64,000 bases of DNA from assembly GCA_025917655.1 (NCBI GenBank), contig CP084616.1:1364001-1428000 (forward strand). The letters are read 5' to 3'. The stretch comes from Chlorella sorokiniana. Taxonomy: Eukaryota > Chlorophyta > Trebouxiophyceae > Chlorellales > Chlorellaceae. The position numbers were made by a program, and so were the translations under genes. Shown piece by piece: positions 33,585 through 41,003 of this stretch. A model generated the notes under the pieces. It searched no databases and was not told the origin of the DNA. It saw only the letters and a program-made list of their open reading frames with translations. The first letter of the stretch is position 1, and the number at the start of each line of letters is the position of its first letter.

Positions 33585-33911
33585 AAGTTCTGGCGGGACG
33601 AACGGCCCCGACGACCCGGGGGTCCCCAGAACTGCCGCGTCCGTTTGTTGGTTCTCTTGCCTTTTCGGTCACCTTCTTTTCATCCTGCATCTGTTGTTTT
33701 CATTTTCAATCCACCAACACCATATAAGAAGCAGAGGACAGAGAGAGAATGGTCAACTCAGTGCACAAAACAGCGCGGCGGCATGGACGCCATCTGGCGG
33801 CACCCCATGGTCAGGTTGCCCCCGCCAGCCGCACGGCATTGCTTTGCGAGAGCCTTCTGCAACCCTCAACAGAATTGCGGGAGCATGCCGGAGTGCTCCT
33901 GCCTTGTTAGG
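33585..33911. promoter_or_regulatory. DIM1 3' region and putative promoter of the palindrome gene
   Basis: CATATAAG at 33721-33728 is a good TATA-box candidate, about 310 bp upstream of the left palindrome gene's ATG. No similar unit was found outside the right arm. No TGTAA for DIM1 was seen. Confidence 0.4.
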
Positions 33912-34638
33912 CTGCAGAGCGCCAGCATGGCGCCGTGCTGCCTGCCTGCTGCCCTCCCACGGCGATTTGGCCCCGGCCACTCGCGCTGCCTTGGCTTTGT
34001 CAAGGTCAGTAACGTCTTGTCCTACCTGAACCATGAGCAACTACGGCCCGCGAGCCAAGGCAGCAGGCATACACACTGGCCGCCGCCAGGCAGCCATGAA
34101 GGGCCGCCTCATCAACAGGCACCAGGGCATGGATCCCTATGCCCCCAGCCTGCAGGCATCGTACGAGGAGGCGGCAGGCCCCCTGCAGAGCTTCGACGAG
34201 CCCGCCCTGTTCGAGACGCTGGGCCAGTCCGATGGGCCCTACTGTCGCGGCGCTCAGAACGCTTTTGTGGTGGGCAGGGGCTGGCAAGGGGCGCCTCGCC
34301 TAGGGTTGTGTTGTCCAAGACGCTGCCTCTGGTGTTGTCCAAGAAAGCTGCCGCGCCGCCGCAGATCCAGTACATGCCCCCTTTGCATCTGCGCAGGACC
34401 TCAAGGAGGCCGACCTAGCCCGCGCCATCAACGACTGTGTGCGACCTGCGGCTTCCGAGCTGCTGCAAAGCTGGCGCGCAGGGACCAGGGAGCTTTCGCC
34501 GGTACAGGTGCGCCGCCCCCGGGCATAGCGGCAGGTGCCTGTGCAGCTGAGATGCACATGTCCTGCCGGCTGCCAATTTCACTTCTCAACAACACATTGC
34601 CGGCATTGTCAGCCGCAGATGATGGTGCTGGAGGCCCT

Positions 34639-34838
34639 GGCGGCCAGCGGGCGCGCCGACACAAGAGGGCCACGATCGGGAGGAGGCGGCCTGTTGCCTG
34701 GCATCCGCTGCTAGCACCAGCTGTCACACTCGCCTGCAGAGCCAGGCAACAGGCTGCCTCCTCCCGATGGTGGCCCAGATGTTGATGTCGTACATCTCAA
34801 ACGGAAAGGTGGGTATGTCGGTGCGCCCGCTGGCCGCC
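34639..34838. repeat. Left-arm hairpin over the VLEALAASGRAD exon
   Basis: Arms 34639-34701 and 34741-34838 are inverted copies of exon sequence. The first arm lacks about 35 bp that the second arm keeps (the inverted FEMYDINIWATI coding sequence), so the sense exon of this copy is damaged. Confidence 0.75.
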
Positions 34839-35006
34839 ATCTGGCGCTAGCAGCGGATGCCTGGATGGCTGGCACTTTTTCATTCCCGGCCTCTGCATTG
34901 CTTCACTCCACCCCAATCGCAGTTGCGCCTGCCCTGTCTCTTTGTGTGGTTCAGCCAACAGCCCACCGGCGAGACGCACTATTTGCAAGAAGCAAGCAGG
35001 CGTGCT

Positions 35007-35207
35007 GCATGAGCGCAAGCTGTCGTGGCTCGCCATGCTTGCTCAGCCGCAGGCGACCGCCCCCGCTGGTCGAGGCCAGAATGGCCAAAGACGCGCCGCC
35101 TATCAGCCAGTGAGCGCCGCGACCTGGCCATTCTGGCCTCGATCAGCGGGGGCAGTCGCCTGCGAAGCTGAGCAAGCATAGCGAGCCACGACAGCTTGCG
35201 CTCATGC
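35007..35207. repeat. Left-arm hairpin, HERKLSWLAML region
   Basis: Nearly perfect inverted repeat: GCATGAGCGCAAGCTGTCGT at the left end and its complement at the right end, meeting near 35107. Arms are about 95 bp with few mismatches. It lies between the exon ending QEASRRAA and the exon starting MVDRMLPLV. Confidence 0.85.
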
Positions 35208-35403
35208 ATGGTGGACCGCATGCTGCCGCTGGTAGGTTTCAACGCAGGAGTGTGTTGGGACGAGGGCCTGTGCATTGCAAGCCGTGCCGTGCTGCATCTC
35301 ATCAATCTGTTGCAATGCCCATTCAACTTACTCATTGCCCCCATTCCGCCTCCTGGCCGGGTGGCGGCAGTGCCGCTGTTGCAGCGCACTTGTGAGCAGC
35401 ACA

Positions 35404-35519
35404 CGGCAGCTGCGTGCTTCGGGTTCAGGAATCAAACTGGATAGGTCAGATTGGGCGGCTGGTCGATCCAATCTGCCCTATCCGGTTCGTTTGCTGAACC
35501 TTAAGCACGCAGCTGCCGT
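35404..35519. repeat. Left-arm hairpin before the HAAAVLPLISAEAA exon
   Basis: CGGCAGCTGCGTGCTTCGGG at the left end pairs with CTTAAGCACGCAGCTGCCG at the right end. Arms are about 55 bp and imperfect in the middle. The same structure is present in the right arm at 39314-39430. Confidence 0.75.
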
Positions 35520-37321
35520 GCTTCCGCTCATCAGCGCCGAAGCAGCCATGATCCCGGCAGTTGAGGCGCTGCCGGTGGCGGTGGAGCTGGCAAACGGCTG
35601 CAGCGAGATGGAGAAGCAGCACCTGCTGCTGGTGCCCGGCGGCAAGATGCCGCTGCTGCCCGCCATGCTGCGGGACGTGCCCCTGCTGACATGTGTCGAT
35701 CTGCCGTTTGAGCAGCTGGGCCAGCTTGCTGAGGCAGGTGCCGGAGGCATGGAGGCCACCCGGCTGCTGGCACAGCTGCTCAGCGCCGCCGGCAGGGGCG
35801 AGGACGGCGGCGGCGTGCAGGAGTTTTTGGCGGCGGCAGAGGCGGCCACCAAAGCATGCCAGGCCTACCTGCTGACCAAAGCGAGCGAGGCTTCCCGTGG
35901 GCGCGCCGCTGAAGGTGGGCATGATTGTTGTCTGGCCTGCCAGCACATGCCTTTTCCCACAGCTTTCGTTCAGGCATCAGGCTGCCTCATCGAGCAGAAT
36001 GCCTCGTTCGCTGCTGCAGAGCCGGACGATGAAGAGCCGGATGGCGGGGAGGACGAGCCAGATCCCTCAGACCCGCCGGTGAGCCCTGCTGATGCCAGCA
36101 TTGCGGGGCCATCCACCTCGGCAACAGCGGCTGGCGAGCCCACCGCCAAGGCCAAGGGCAGCGTGCCAGCGCGCATGGCTGCGCACAACCAGGAGTCCAA
36201 GGGCTGGCGCCCGGCGCGGGCGAGGACGACTGGGATGCCCTGTCGTACAAGGAGCGCAACTACGGCCCCCGGATGCGCCCGCCCGGCGGCCTGCTCCCCC
36301 TCACTCGCCCAATCGACGAGTTCATGCGTGAGTTGGCCACCGTGCGCGTGCTGACCACCGACAAGCGCAGCCTGCTGCACGATGTGGCGGGCGAGCAGCG
36401 CCCGTTCAACTCTGTGCACTACCTGCTCGTCTTTGACAGCCAGCTGCTGCTGGTAGTTCCGCGCCCAGGGTCGCTGGAGGCCGCAGAGCAGGTGGGGAGG
36501 GGAATGCAGCAGGGGTTGCAGGGGTTGTGTTGCAGAAGCACATTGCAGAAGCAGGGCTGTCATCTGCTCAACGTCAATGTGGACGACGGCTGCACCGCTT
36601 TGCTGCCCACCCATGCAGGGCCCAGATGAGCTGTACGTCTACAGCCCTGCGGCGCTGCCCCACATGGACAGCAGCGTGCTCAGCCGCGCCACGCCTCTGT
36701 CGCTGCTGGACAGCGCCAGAGTGACACCCGCCGAGCTGGTGCACCGCCTGCCCCTGCTGCTGCGCAGCAGCGCCCGACGTGCTGTCGGCCGCCCAGATCC
36801 CCACCAAGCTGAGCCGCCTGACCGGCCTGCTGTTTGCTGTGGGCATGACGGAAGCGGGCATCGACTGGACGAGCGGCGGCCTGCTGCCCACGCTGGGCAT
36901 CGGCGGCTGGACGGGCGACATCTGGCTGGACTTTGTGGTGAATGCTGCAGCCAACCGCCAGCAGGCGCGGCGTGTTGCCGACGCGGTGGCGGCGGTGGAG
37001 GCTGCTGGCTTTGCCGGCCCCCGCCAGTGCCTGAGCACGCTGGGCAACCTGCGCCCCCTGTGGCGCAAGGCGGGCGTCGTCACGCAGCGCAATTCTAGTG
37101 TTCCAGCCGCTTTCATTGAATTTCAGCTCATCTGCCGAGTAACACCTGCTTGCGATGCGCTCCACTTTACAAGAGAACTGTGCAATATCTGGCGCATTCA
37201 CCATGAACAAAACAGCACGGCATTTCAGCTTGGTAAGCTGTACATGCATGAGGCCTTTATAAAGCCAGCAAAATCCCAAAGGGCACCGTTGTTGCTGTCG
37301 GCGCAGAGGTGCAGCGAACCC

Positions 37322-40300
37322 TCAGCCGCGGCGGGTGCGAGAGCCCAGCTGCCCCTCAGCGTCGGGTTCCACGTCCTGCGCGCGGCGCCTGCCCCTGCCG
37401 TTGCCGCTGCGTAACCCCTTGGCCCGTGCCGCCTCCACCACCGCCCGCAGCTCGGGCGAGGCCTTGCCGATGTCGCCCACCCACTTGCGCTGGTTGTTCC
37501 ACCTGTTGGCCAGGGTCGTCAGGGTGGCGGCGCCGCGGGCCAGGGCCGCCTCAAAGATGGCGCGCACGGGCTGCTCGCCCCACCCCTGCTCCAGGATGCG
37601 GCGCCACCTCGCAATTGATCTGTCGCTGCTCGAGCCGTTGACGATGGGGATGCCAGGCAGCCTGCCCACCCCCAGCGCGGTCAGCTGCGCCTGGCATCCC
37701 CGTCGTCAACGGCTTGAGCAGCGACAGATCCATTGCCAGGTGGCGCAGCATCCTGGAGCAGGGGTGGGGCCAGCAGCGTTGCGCTGCGTGACGACGCCCG
37801 CCTTGCGCCACAGGGGGCGCAGGTTGCCCAGCGTGCTCAGGCACTGGCGGGGGCAGGCAAAGCCAGCAGCCTCCAGGGCCAGCCACCGCGTCGCAACGTG
37901 CCGCGCCTGCTGGTGGTCGGCTGCAGCATTCACCACAAAGTCCAGCCAGATGTCGCCCGTCCAGCCGCCGATGCCCAGCGTGGGCAGCAGGCCGCCGCTT
38001 GTCCAGTCGATGCCCGCCTCAGTCATGCCCACCGCAAACAGCAGGCCGGCCAGGCGGCTCAGCTTGGTGGGGATCTGGGCGGCTGACAGCACGTCGGCGT
38101 TGCTGCGCAGCAGCAGGGGCAGGCGGTGCACCAGCTCGGCGGGTGTCACTCTGGCGCTGTCCAGCAGCGACAGAGGCGTGCCGCGGCTGATCAAGCTGCT
38201 GTCCATGTGGGGCAGCGCCGCAGGGCTGTAGACGTACAGCTCATTTGGGCCCTGCATGAGCAGGCAAGCACAGGGGTGCAGCTGTCGTCCACATCGACGT
38301 TGAGCAGATGGAAGCCGGGCAGGCCTCTTCTGCAACACAACCCCTGCAACCCTTGCACTCCCCTCCCCACCTGCTCTTCGGCCTCCAGCAACCCGGGCGC
38401 GGCACGACCAGCAGCAGCTGGCTGTCAAAGGTCAGCACGTTAGTGCACTGAGATGAAGGGGCGCTGCTCGCCCGCCACATCGTGCAGCAGGCTGCGCTTG
38501 TCGGTGGTGAGCACGCGCACGGTCGCCGACTCATCAATGGGCCGGGTGAGGGGGAGCAGGCCGCCGGGCGGGCGCATCCGGGGGCCGTAGTTGCGCTCCT
38601 TGTACGACAGGGCATCCCAGTCGTCCTCGCCTGCGCCGGGCGCCAGCCCTTGGACTCCTGGTTGTGCGCAGCCATGCGCGCTGGCACGCTGCCCTTGGCC
38701 TTGGCAGTGGCCTCGCCTGCCGCTGCCGCCGAGGTGGATGGCCCCGCAATGCTGGCATCAGCAGGGGTCACCGGCGGGTCTGAGGGATCTGGCTCGTCCT
38801 CCCCGCCATCCGGCTCTTCATCATCCGGCTCTGCAGCAGCGAACGAGGCATTCTGCTCGATGAGGCAGCATGAGGCATGAACAAGAGTTGTGGGAAGAAG
38901 CATGTGCCGGCAACAATAGTGCCCACCTTCAGCTGTGCGCCCACGGGAAGCCTCGCTCGCTTTGGTCAGCAGGTAGGTCTGTAAAGAGGTGGCCGCCTCT
39001 GCCGCCACCAGGAACTCCTGCACGCCGCCGCCGTCCTCGCCCCTGCCGGCGGCGCTGAGCAGCTGTGTCAGCAGGTGGGTAACCTCCATGCCCCGGCGCC
39101 TGCCTCTGCAAGCTGGCCCAGCTGCTCAAACGGCAGATCGACACATGTCAGCAGGGGCACGTCCTGTAGCATGGCGGGCAGCAGCGGCATCTTGCCGCCA
39201 GGCACTAGCAGCAGGTGCTGCTTCTCCATCTCGCTGCAGCCGTTTGCCAGCTCCGCCGCCACCGGCAGCGCCTCAACAGCCGGGATGGCTGCCTCGGCGC
39301 TGATGAGCAGCAGCACGGCAGCTGCGTGCTTCGAATCAGAAAACGAACCGGACAGGGCAGATTGGATCGACCAGCCACCCAATTTGACCTATCCAGTTTG
39401 ATTCCTGAACCCGAAGCACGCAGCTGCCGTGTGCAGCTCACAAGTGCGCTGCAACAGCGGCACTGCCGCCACCCGGCCAGGAGGCGGAATGGGGGACAAT
39501 GAGTAAGTTGAATGGGCATTGAGACAGATTGATGAGATGCAGCACGGCACGGCTTGCAATGCACAGGCCCTCGTGCCAACACACTCCTGCGTTGAAACCT
39601 ACCAGCGGCAGCATGCGGTCCACCATGCATGAGCGCAAGCTGTCGTGGCTCGCCATGCTTGATCAACTTCGCAGGCGACCGCCCCCGCTGGTCGAGGCCA
39701 GAATGGCCAGAGGCGCGCCGCCTATCAGCCAGTGAGCGCCGCGACCTGGCCATTCTGGCCTCGACCAGCGGGGGCGGTCGCCTGCGGCTGAGCAAGCATA
39801 GCGAGCCACGACAGCTTGCGCTCATGCAGCACGCCTGCTTGCTTCTTGCAAATAGTGCGTCTCGCTGGTGGGCTGTTGGCTGAACAACACAACGGGACAG
39901 GGCAGGCGCATCTGCGATTGGGGTGGAGTGAAGCAATGCAGAGGCCGGCCATCCAGGCATCCGCTGCTAGCGCCAGATGGCGGCCAGCGGGCGCACCGAC
40001 ACACGCACCTTTCCGTTTGAGATGTACGACATCAACATCTGGGCCACCATCGGGAGGAGGCGGCCTGTTGCCTGGCATCCGCTGCTAGCACCAGCTGTCG
40101 CACTCGCCTGCAGAGCCAGGCAACAGGCCGCCTCCTCCCAATGGTGGCCCAGATGTTCATGTCGCACATCTCAAACGGAAAGGTGCGTGTGTCGGCGCGC
40201 CCGCTGGCCGCCAGCGCCTCCAGCACCTTCACCTGCGGCTGAAAATGCCGGCAATGTGTTGTTGGGAGGTGAACTTGGCAGCCGGCAGGACATGTGCATC

Positions 40301-40870
40301 TCAGCTGCACAGGCACCTGCCGCTACGCCCGGGGGCGCACCTGTACCGGCGAAAGCTCCCTGGTCCCTGCGCGCCAGCTTTGCAGCAGCTCGGGAGCCGC
40401 AGGTCGCACACGGTCGTTGATGGCGCGGGCTAGGTCGGCCTCCTTGAGGTTCTGCGCAGATGCAAAGGGGGCATGTACTGGACCTGCGGCGGCGCGGCAG
40501 CTTCTTGGACAACACCCGACGGAGGCGCCCCTCGCCAACCCCTGCCCACCACAAATGCGTTTAGAGCGCCGCGACAGTAGGGCCCATCGGACTGGCCCAG
40601 CGTCTCGAACAAGGCAGGTTCATCAAAGCTCTGCAGGGGCCTGCAGGCATCGTACGAGGAGGCGGCAGGCGTACGATGCATGCAGGCCCCCTGCAGAGCT
40701 TTGATGAACCTGCCTTGTTCGAGACGCTGGGCCAGTCCGATGGGGGCATAGGGCTCCATGCCCTGGTGCCTGTTGATCAGTCGGCCCTTCATAGCTGCCT
40801 GGCGGCGGCCAGTGTGGATGCCTACCGCCTTGGCTCGTTTGGCTCGGGCTCGTAAGCCGTAGCTGCTCAT
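37322..40870 (-). CDS. Right copy of unrecognised palindrome gene, more complete
   Basis: Starts near ATG 40870 (MSSYGLRARAKRAKAVGIH). Downstream pieces in minus orientation: QSFDEPALFETLGQSDGPYC, DLKEADLARAINDRVRPAA, VKVLEALAASGRADTRTF with PFEMCDMNIWATI, FSQQPTSETHYLQEASRRAA, SLRSCMVDRMLPLVGFNAG, EMEKQHLLLVPGGKMPLLP, an acidic linker, ALPHMDSSLISRGTPLSLLD, GGWTGDIWLDFVVNAAADHQ. A final exon absent from the left copy encodes SIARWRRILEQGWGEQPV, IFEAALARGAATLTTLANRW, ELRAVVEAARAKGLRSG and stops at 37322. Many exons run into hairpins formed by an inverted copy of their own end. Exon boundaries and frame are uncertain. No family was recognised; it could be a host gene or come from a mobile element. 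Confidence 0.45.
37577..37770. repeat. Hairpin at the junction of spacer and right arm
   Basis: GCCCCACCCCTGCTCCAGGA at the left end pairs with its complement ending at 37770; arms of about 85 bp surround a loop near 37675. It contains the start of the last right-copy exon (LPGIPIVNGSSSDRSIARW on the minus strand) plus an inverted copy of it. Its centre is not the centre of the 7-kb palindrome, so it arose separately. Confidence 0.8.
39314..39430. repeat. Right-arm hairpin matching 35404-35519
   Basis: CGGCAGCTGCGTGCTTCGAA pairs with GAAGCACGCAGCTGCCG at the other end. Position corresponds to the left-arm hairpin, so the hairpin predates or was copied with the large duplication. Confidence 0.75.
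39627..39827. repeat. Right-arm hairpin matching 35007-35207
   Basis: Same about 95-bp arms (GCATGAGCGCAAGCTGTCGT and complement). The loop and arms differ slightly from the left-arm version (for example GATCAACTTC against CTCAGC). Confidence 0.85.
39979..40212. repeat. Right-arm hairpin over the FPFEMxDxNIWATI exon
   Basis: Two 98-bp arms (39979-40076 and 40114-40212) enclose a 37-nt loop. The sense exon (minus strand, 40212 downward) and its inverted copy differ at a few sites (MCDMNIW against MYDINIW), showing independent drift. Confidence 0.85.
40584..40746. repeat. Hairpin present only in the right arm
   Basis: Arms 40584-40655 and 40671-40746 are inverted copies of the exon encoding QSFDEPALFETLGQSDGPYC. 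The left arm has this exon once, without a hairpin (34180-34250), so this foldback arose after, or was lost after, the large duplication. Confidence 0.8.
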
Positions 40871-41003
40871 GGTGAGGTAGGGCCAGACGTGACCTTGGAC
40901 AAGGTTCTCATGCAAAGCCAAGGCATGCCAGGTGAATGGCAGGGGCCAAAACTCCACGGGAGGGCAGCAGGCAGCCAGCAAAGCGCCATGCTGGCGCTGT
41001 GCC

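Follow-up and report, generated by a model that had tools for sequence, protein, structure and literature searches.

Nested Hairpins in a Diverged Gene Palindrome of Chlorella sorokiniana

Instability and loss are the expected fate of long inverted repeats. What history would leave two inverted copies of a gene side by side, with smaller hairpins inside them? The locus considered here lies in the middle of the window, i.e., the whole 64-kb stretch of DNA analysed, on a large contig that is presumed nuclear. The gene is adjoined by DIM1 on one side and by histone H2B on the other.

Arms, Centre and Reading Frames

Self-comparison matched 34,180–37,111 to 40,639–37,760 in inverted orientation (2,971 columns, 88.5% identity with gaps counted) and 33,914–34,147 to 41,002–40,741, also inverted (263 columns, 78%). 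In a global alignment, the arms share 3,106 aligned bases with 249 substitutions, i.e., 92.0% identity, and are separated by 28 indel events. The two comparisons confirm the palindrome of inverted gene arms proposed by a sequence-only reading. The left arm (33,914–37,111, plus strand) is a 3′-truncated gene copy with its first ATG at about 34,033. The right arm (37,760–41,002, minus strand) has its first ATG at about 40,870 and runs on into the 3′ end of the gene. The arms are disposed tail to tail about a 648-base centre (37,112–37,759, minus strand), which can be read as the right copy's last exon and 3′ region: the last-exon frame stops at 37,322–37,324, and a TGTAA is found at 37,171–37,167, both on the minus strand. 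Of the claim of two gene copies, the inverted copies stand, with the amendment that the left copy stops before the last exon. The sequence-only reading was right about the arms and silent on the missing left 3′ end, the frame lesions and the nested hairpins described below. By eye, likeness of the arms seemed to continue past 33,914 and 41,002; shuffles ruled this out, the outer flanks having a local score of 15 where 300 shuffles gave a mean of 10.2 and a best of 16, which is within chance.

Every strong inverted repeat of the window (nine in all, defined as at least 100 columns with at least 74% identity) falls within 33,914–41,002, and a sample of 20 genomic stretches of 10 kb (200 kb) has none. 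Thus, the palindrome is not due to chance. When the threshold is relaxed to E up to 0.001, inverted matches appear in 15 of the 20 control stretches. These are weak; those of at least 60 columns, among the matches listed, have 57–76% identity. Among the best candidates scored, no further copies of 33,900–37,000 or of 37,080–37,800 were found in the 38.8-Mb genome, and no homologous locus was detected elsewhere in it by DNA or protein match.

The arms differ in the manner of coding sequences. The arm-versus-arm pN/pS is 0.30 in the predicted frames (bootstrap 0.20–0.46); the shifted frames give 1.43 and 1.61. In the exon pieces, 22, 19, and 49 differences are at first, second, and third codon positions, an excess at the third. 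As the differences are mainly at synonymous sites, they are not sequencing noise, and the third-position bias supports the earlier view of a diverged duplication rather than a trivial copy. The mainly synonymous differences are evidence that coding constraint acted after the duplication. The signal is uneven: nonsynonymous changes outnumber synonymous ones in 4 of 11 exon pieces, where the synonymous-to-nonsynonymous counts are 0:3, 1:2, 5.5:9.5, and 0:4.

Frame lesions are present in both copies. The left copy loses its frame through a one-base length difference at 36,772 (plus strand). In this copy, the exon piece at 36,773–37,093 (plus strand) has its right-copy counterpart within 37,778–38,251 (minus strand). 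In the right copy, there is an in-frame stop at 38,440–38,442 (minus strand) beside a one-base length difference. Several features are hard to square with so low a pN/pS, namely the hairpins within the gene, the truncation of the left copy from its birth, and the lesions that both copies carry; the conflict would ease if the lesions arose late or are sequencing errors left uncorrected.

The protein had been said to resemble no recognisable family, which is borne out by searches of Pfam (9 frames, then 6 pieces), NCBIfam (5 pieces), and PHROGs (5 pieces), all without a credible match, and of PDB sequences, where one 158-residue piece had no match. The same piece had no match among viral contigs. 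Weak rows, i.e., Rv2949c-like (E 0.2), RhlB (E 0.013), LIC13305 (E 0.029), phrog_6236 (E 0.026), and phrog_29211 (E 0.79), were set aside as being far under curated cut-offs or without known function. AlphaFold models of two pieces, made from single-sequence input, have mean pLDDT values of 43.1 and 51.7, too poor for a fold search. Rfam has nothing at the gathering score in the window.

Hairpins Nested Within the Arms

The palindrome is more complex than was described, since hairpins are nested within its arms. Seven compact hairpins have stems of 53–99 columns. H1 extends from 35,006 to 35,208 in the left arm (stems 35,006–35,087 and 35,125–35,208, p-distance 3.7%) and from 39,626 to 39,828 in the right arm (p-distance 5.4%), where its loop is flipped relative to the left arm. 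H2 occupies 39,978–40,213 in the right arm, with a stem of 99 columns and a p-distance of 4.0%. In the left arm, H2 is shortened (34,667–34,776); its 36-column stem (p-distance 5.6%) is below the threshold of the inverted-repeat scan (at least 100 columns, 74% identity), and its loop is flipped relative to the right arm. H3 is at 35,386–35,537 in the left arm (p-distance 13.2%) and at 39,297–39,447 in the right (p-distance 16.7%). H4, at 40,583–40,744 (p-distance 1.4%), is found in the right arm only. H5, in the right copy, extends from 37,570 to 37,777 (p-distance 6.7%), and the left arm ends, at the position matching 37,760, within the outermost 18 bases of the H5 stem. H1, H2, and H3 occur in both arms.

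The stems are imperfect, departing from the perfect stems of coding palindromes. Their divergence spans 1.4% to 16.7%, so the hairpins differ in history, and the unequal p-distances suggest that they originated, or were homogenised, at different times. H4 is an inverted copy that adjoins its source and is absent from the other arm: the right arm has two stems, and the left arm has a single copy within 34,150–34,260. A codon-usage test for the original stem, trained on the exon pieces of the locus itself, gave a clear answer for H4 and a weak one for H3. The stems of H1, H2, and H5 scored alike on both strands, with no strand favoured.

The loops carry a further record. A 32-base word of the H1 loop is on the plus strand at both 35,092 and 39,714 and is absent from the minus strand; thus, the H1 loop is flipped against the symmetry of the palindrome. 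For the H2 loop, the arms match at 39 of 40 columns when inverted versus 25 of 45 when direct. The H3 loop matches direct (19 of 23) and is not flipped. The spacer inversion of template-switch duplications is therefore seen at H1 and H2 and not at H3. The two flipped loops are likely a footprint of template switching or of recombination in inverted repeats. In addition, the four stem copies of H1, read by eye, group differently at adjacent sites, a pattern that patchy conversion would leave.

Proposed Origin by Inverted Duplication

The locus probably arose, we propose, when a gene was duplicated by fold-back at a hot spot for palindromes, and repeated template switching has since kept the copies partly alike. 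The proposed steps are as follows. A once constrained protein gene between DIM1 and histone H2B would have undergone a fold-back inverted duplication, giving a minus-strand copy with the 3′ end and a plus-strand, 3′-truncated copy. Template switching, in replication or in repair, would then have recurrently yielded the smaller inverted duplications, H1 to H5, at the same spot. Further switches at a later time, or recombination involving stems and arms, would have made some hairpins alike again and flipped two loops. The proposal builds on direct observations: two arms, hairpins that have diverged to unequal degrees, loops that are flipped, arm differences with a coding signature, and control stretches that hold no such structures. 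From these, we infer a replication mechanism, a spot made unstable by the arms themselves, and two copies now decaying. The direction of the changes and the order assigned to them are likewise inferred. Ordinary inverted-repeat recombination would flip loops too.

Published systems offer precedents; statements about the papers cited by accession refer to the sections drawn on here. In yeast genes, template switching is reported to homogenise arms and invert spacers (PMC8604942). Template switching is also reported to create and maintain hairpins (PMC8794818). The locus resembles these template-switch quasi-palindromes in that inverted copies lie by their source, arms are alike, spacers are flipped, and events recur at one place. 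In contrast, the yeast examples have arms of 5–16 bp and inverted spacers with 2–5 changed bases, whereas here the stems are 53–99 columns, the loops are up to 40 bases, and several hairpins per gene lie inside a 7.1-kb palindrome. As the yeast cases are far shorter, extension to the present stems is an assumption. ODIRA, an inverted amplification by switching between leading and lagging strands, likewise has junctions at interrupted inverted repeats but yields inverted triplications, whereas only two copies are present here (PMC10766183). The literature on coding palindromes and template switching gave no report of such a locus, nor, among the matches listed, did that on Chlorella palindromes or on algal small RNA and inverted duplications.

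Hairpins of several ages and flipped loops in a diverged gene palindrome amount to a natural record of the birth, persistence, and homogenisation of inverted duplications in a nuclear gene. The locus is also a candidate for the step that turns inverted duplications into small-RNA precursors. A bolder and rather doubtful form of the proposal is a self-reinforcing palindrome factory in a nuclear gene under protein constraint. Each inverted copy would raise the odds of further template switches, hairpins of several ages would accumulate, invert their loops, and remain similar, and the transcripts would be built-in Dicer substrates.

Small RNA and Other Readings

Production of small RNA from the locus, as suggested by the sequence-only reading, is possible. 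It is unlikely that the locus has been retained for making hairpin RNA, which a Dicer-like enzyme would process into small RNAs acting mainly in cis. The RNA could arise by two routes, from local hairpins in the transcript of the gene or by read-through of the left copy into right-copy antisense. The inverted copies are able to pair, as siRNA loci require, both as arms and as local hairpins: when folded as RNA, five hairpins out of the seven, with the left H1 taken at full length as well, gave z values of −11 to −24, with none of 200 shuffles as good. Good folding, however, follows from symmetry alone, and high stem identity is explained by template switching without selection for pairing. A target in trans, another mark of siRNA loci, was not found among the best candidates scored in the genome. 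As to read-through, the right copy has its TGTAA, and the left copy has none on its own strand before 38,980, inside the right arm, but DIM1 likewise lacks a TGTAA downstream on its own strand, so the argument is weak. The genome encodes RNase III domains (two matches above the cut-off, one below) and, on C1, an Argonaute-like gene with Piwi stretches above the cut-off and a PAZ stretch just below it. No Dicer domain was found in the nine frames scanned (3 of 9 listed for L014 and 6 of 11 for L015, excluding L014's RNase III frames).

Hairpins in introns, UTRs, and some coding exons are the source of many small RNAs in Chlamydomonas (PMC4817775). Hairpins are similarly embedded in a protein gene of a green alga here, but they are known from DNA and predicted folding, whereas DCL3 processing is shown there. 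The soybean I locus, with inverted chalcone synthase repeats that make siRNA, also has adjacent, inverted copies of a protein gene; it differs in having other target genes and measured siRNAs, whereas for the present locus, described at the DNA level, no second locus turned up among the best candidates scored (PMC3804491). A paper on Chlamydomonas miRNA origins (PMC5511227) holds, in the sections drawn on, nothing decisive for this locus.

It is improbable that both copies are still working genes, with products that include hairpin-encoded residues. The model for this would be Nematomorpha mitochondria, in which protein genes hold inverted repeats, some overlapping, of up to 284 bp, and conversion by template switching is discussed (PMC6649704). 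Those repeats are perfect, mitochondrial, and in working genes, whereas the present ones are imperfect, taken as nuclear, and accompanied by frame lesions. The pN/pS of 0.30, a right-copy frame that remains open across H4, and the like scores of H1, H2, and H5 stems on both strands under locus codon usage are in keeping with function. As these scores pick no strand, they do not demonstrate that both stems code, and an in-frame stop, odd-length differences within exon pieces, and a left copy without the last exon argue against working genes.

Fold-back reads are a known artefact, and a fold-back chimera joined into the contig during library preparation or assembly could be imagined, with the one-base length differences as residual read errors. 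Read errors would not favour third codon positions, and the two arms are unlike in H4, in the orientation of their loops, and in long indels; an artefact is very improbable. A foldback or MITE-like mobile element is hardly credible, as no second copy was found among the best candidates scored in the 38.8-Mb genome, no transposase or other family in the scanned frames, and no target-site duplication by eye, and the arms have the look of an intron-containing gene under coding constraint, even though the inverted repeats are nested and the arms end outward at 33,914 and 41,002, with likeness beyond at chance level.

Extent and content of the arms

The palindrome lies on contig C11 (the window spans positions 1,364,001–1,428,000), one of the 15 contigs that make up a 38.8-Mb genome. 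Genome size, G+C content, and gene structure suggest a chlorophyte green alga. Pfam places a DIM1 gene to its left on the plus strand and a core histone gene to its right on the minus strand, with matches in three of the four frames scanned at the flanks; H2B was the top PDB match of the histone frame. Self-comparison and alignment put the left arm at 33,914–37,111 (plus strand) and the right arm at 41,002–37,760 (minus strand). Global alignment pairs 3,106 of their bases, 249 of them substituted (92.0% identity), and shows 28 indel events, eight of which are in multiples of three. This bears out the two inverted arms of about 3.2 kb, separated by substitutions and indels, of the sequence-only reading. 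Outside 33,914 and 41,002, the likeness of the flanks is not above that of shuffled sequences.

Both arms read as a single multi-exon gene, tail to tail, with exon borders read by eye from the sequence rather than taken from a gene-prediction tool. The centre (37,112–37,759, minus strand) can be read as the right copy's last exon and 3′ region; the left copy ends ahead of that exon. Thus, of the proposed pair of tail-to-tail copies of one gene, the inverted arms stand but the left copy is incomplete. The sequence-only reading recognized no family for the product, and none was found in Pfam, NCBIfam, PHROGs or, with one piece, PDB. Among the best-scoring candidates in the 38.8-Mb genome, no other homologue was found.

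Divergence as coding DNA and frame lesions

In ten exon pieces (558 codons in predicted frames, codons with a gap or stop left out), the arms differ at 22, 19, and 49 sites at codon positions 1, 2, and 3, respectively. The pN/pS between arms is 0.30 (bootstrap 0.20–0.46), versus 1.43 and 1.61 in two shifted frames; an 11-piece, 566-codon version, with 14 gapped codons left out, gives an identical pN/pS. Of the aligned bases outside the exon pieces, 156 of 1,388 differ (11.2%), close to the pS of 10.9%. From the low pN/pS and the outside-piece divergence near pS, it follows that the arms drifted apart for the most part as coding sequence. The third-position bias and the pN/pS likewise uphold the view that these are diverged copies rather than a trivial copying artefact. 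The coding signal is uneven, as nonsynonymous differences exceed synonymous ones in 4 of the 11 pieces. Had the left copy lacked function from the start while the right copy stayed fully constrained, a pN/pS of about 0.5 or more would be expected. Such a value slightly exceeds the upper end of the bootstrap range, although gene conversion between arms could obscure the difference.

Both copies carry one-base length differences that disrupt the reading frame in or at exon pieces (left coordinates 35,744, 36,420, 36,466, 36,772, 36,977, and 36,990), and a stop lies in frame in the right copy at 38,440–38,442 (minus strand). These lesions and the stop, along with a frame change common to both copies, count against present function. 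The frame lesions may be either late decay or uncorrected sequencing errors; short reads generally map badly in a region of this kind. The common frame change, at 36,213–36,219 (plus) and about 38,631–38,637 (minus), lies between two well-coding stretches and is either pre-duplication decay or a systematic sequencing error within a run rich in G+C.

Nested hairpins and flipped loops

Seven compact hairpins lie inside the arms or centre. H1 (stem p-distances 3.7 and 5.4%) and H3 (13.2 and 16.7%) occur in both arms. The others belong to the right copy: H2 (4.0%), a shortened form of which (5.6%), outside the count of seven, is in the left arm; H4 (1.4%), confined to the right arm; and H5 (6.7%), at 37,570–37,777 in the tail. 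Since the p-distances are unequal, from 1.4 to 16.7%, the hairpins differ in when they arose or were last homogenized. RNA folding of five of the seven (H1 of the left arm at two lengths) gave z-scores of −11 to −24 versus shuffles, which restate the stem symmetry and are no evidence of function.

All nine strong inverted repeats (at least 100 columns, 74% identity) in the 64-kb window fall within the palindrome, namely the seven hairpins and two arm-pair pieces. None was found in 20 sampled 10-kb stretches, a control of 200 kb of the 38.8 Mb at round-number positions, with 8 of the 20 on C11, that does not establish genome-wide uniqueness. When matches with E up to 0.001 were admitted, inverted ones turned up in 15 of the 20 stretches, but these were weak (57–76% identity among matches listed with at least 60 columns).

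The H1 loop is a 32-base word found on the plus strand at both 35,092 and 39,714 and absent from the minus strand. A simple palindrome would reverse one of these loops; therefore, the H1 loop is flipped. A rougher cut matched 24 of 32 columns inverted versus 16 of 31 direct, and the 32-base word was judged the better cut. The H2 loop matches at 39 of 40 columns inverted versus 25 of 45 direct. The H3 loop keeps its orientation, matching at 19 of 23 columns direct versus 10 of 23 inverted. By eye, the four copies of the H1 stem, in counts that take in loop and flanks, group in conflicting ways from one site to the next, a pattern expected of patchy conversion. The left-arm end, 37,111, pairs with 37,760, among the 18 outermost bases of H5 (37,760–37,777), and the duplication end and H5 may share a break point.

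In yeast genes, template switching is described as homogenizing arms and inverting spacers (PMC8604942), and it is also reported to create and maintain RNA hairpins (PMC8794818); long palindromes within coding sequence are reported from Nematomorpha mitochondria (PMC6649704). The palindrome is best called a probable product of known mechanisms; what sets it apart is its scale, its nesting, and the repeated occurrence within a single gene.

Possible read-through and candidate silencing machinery

Inverted gene copies silence relatives at the soybean I locus (PMC3804491). In derived chlorophytes, the usual near-upstream element of poly(A) signals is UGUAA, present on average in about 60% of sequences (PMC1868727). 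The right copy has TGTAA at 37,171–37,167 (minus strand), and the left copy meets its first TGTAA on its own strand only at 38,980. On this basis, read-through of the left copy, giving long self-paired RNA, would be plausible. DIM1 likewise lacks a downstream plus-strand TGTAA throughout 33,585–38,979 (more than 5 kb), so the argument is given little weight.

RNase III gave two matches over the cut-off on contig C3 and a weaker one on C1. Near those two C3 matches, nine of 20 listed long frames were scanned and gave no Dicer domain; the sole domain in the nine was ankyrin repeats, in one frame lying upstream of a C3 RNase III match (positions 2–727 of L015, a stretch of C3). On C1, four Piwi-domain stretches exceed the family cut-off, alone or together with neighbours, and a PAZ match beside them is just below it. 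The four Piwi stretches and weak PAZ, in a row on one strand at C1:3,585,026–3,589,049, are probably a single Argonaute-like gene.
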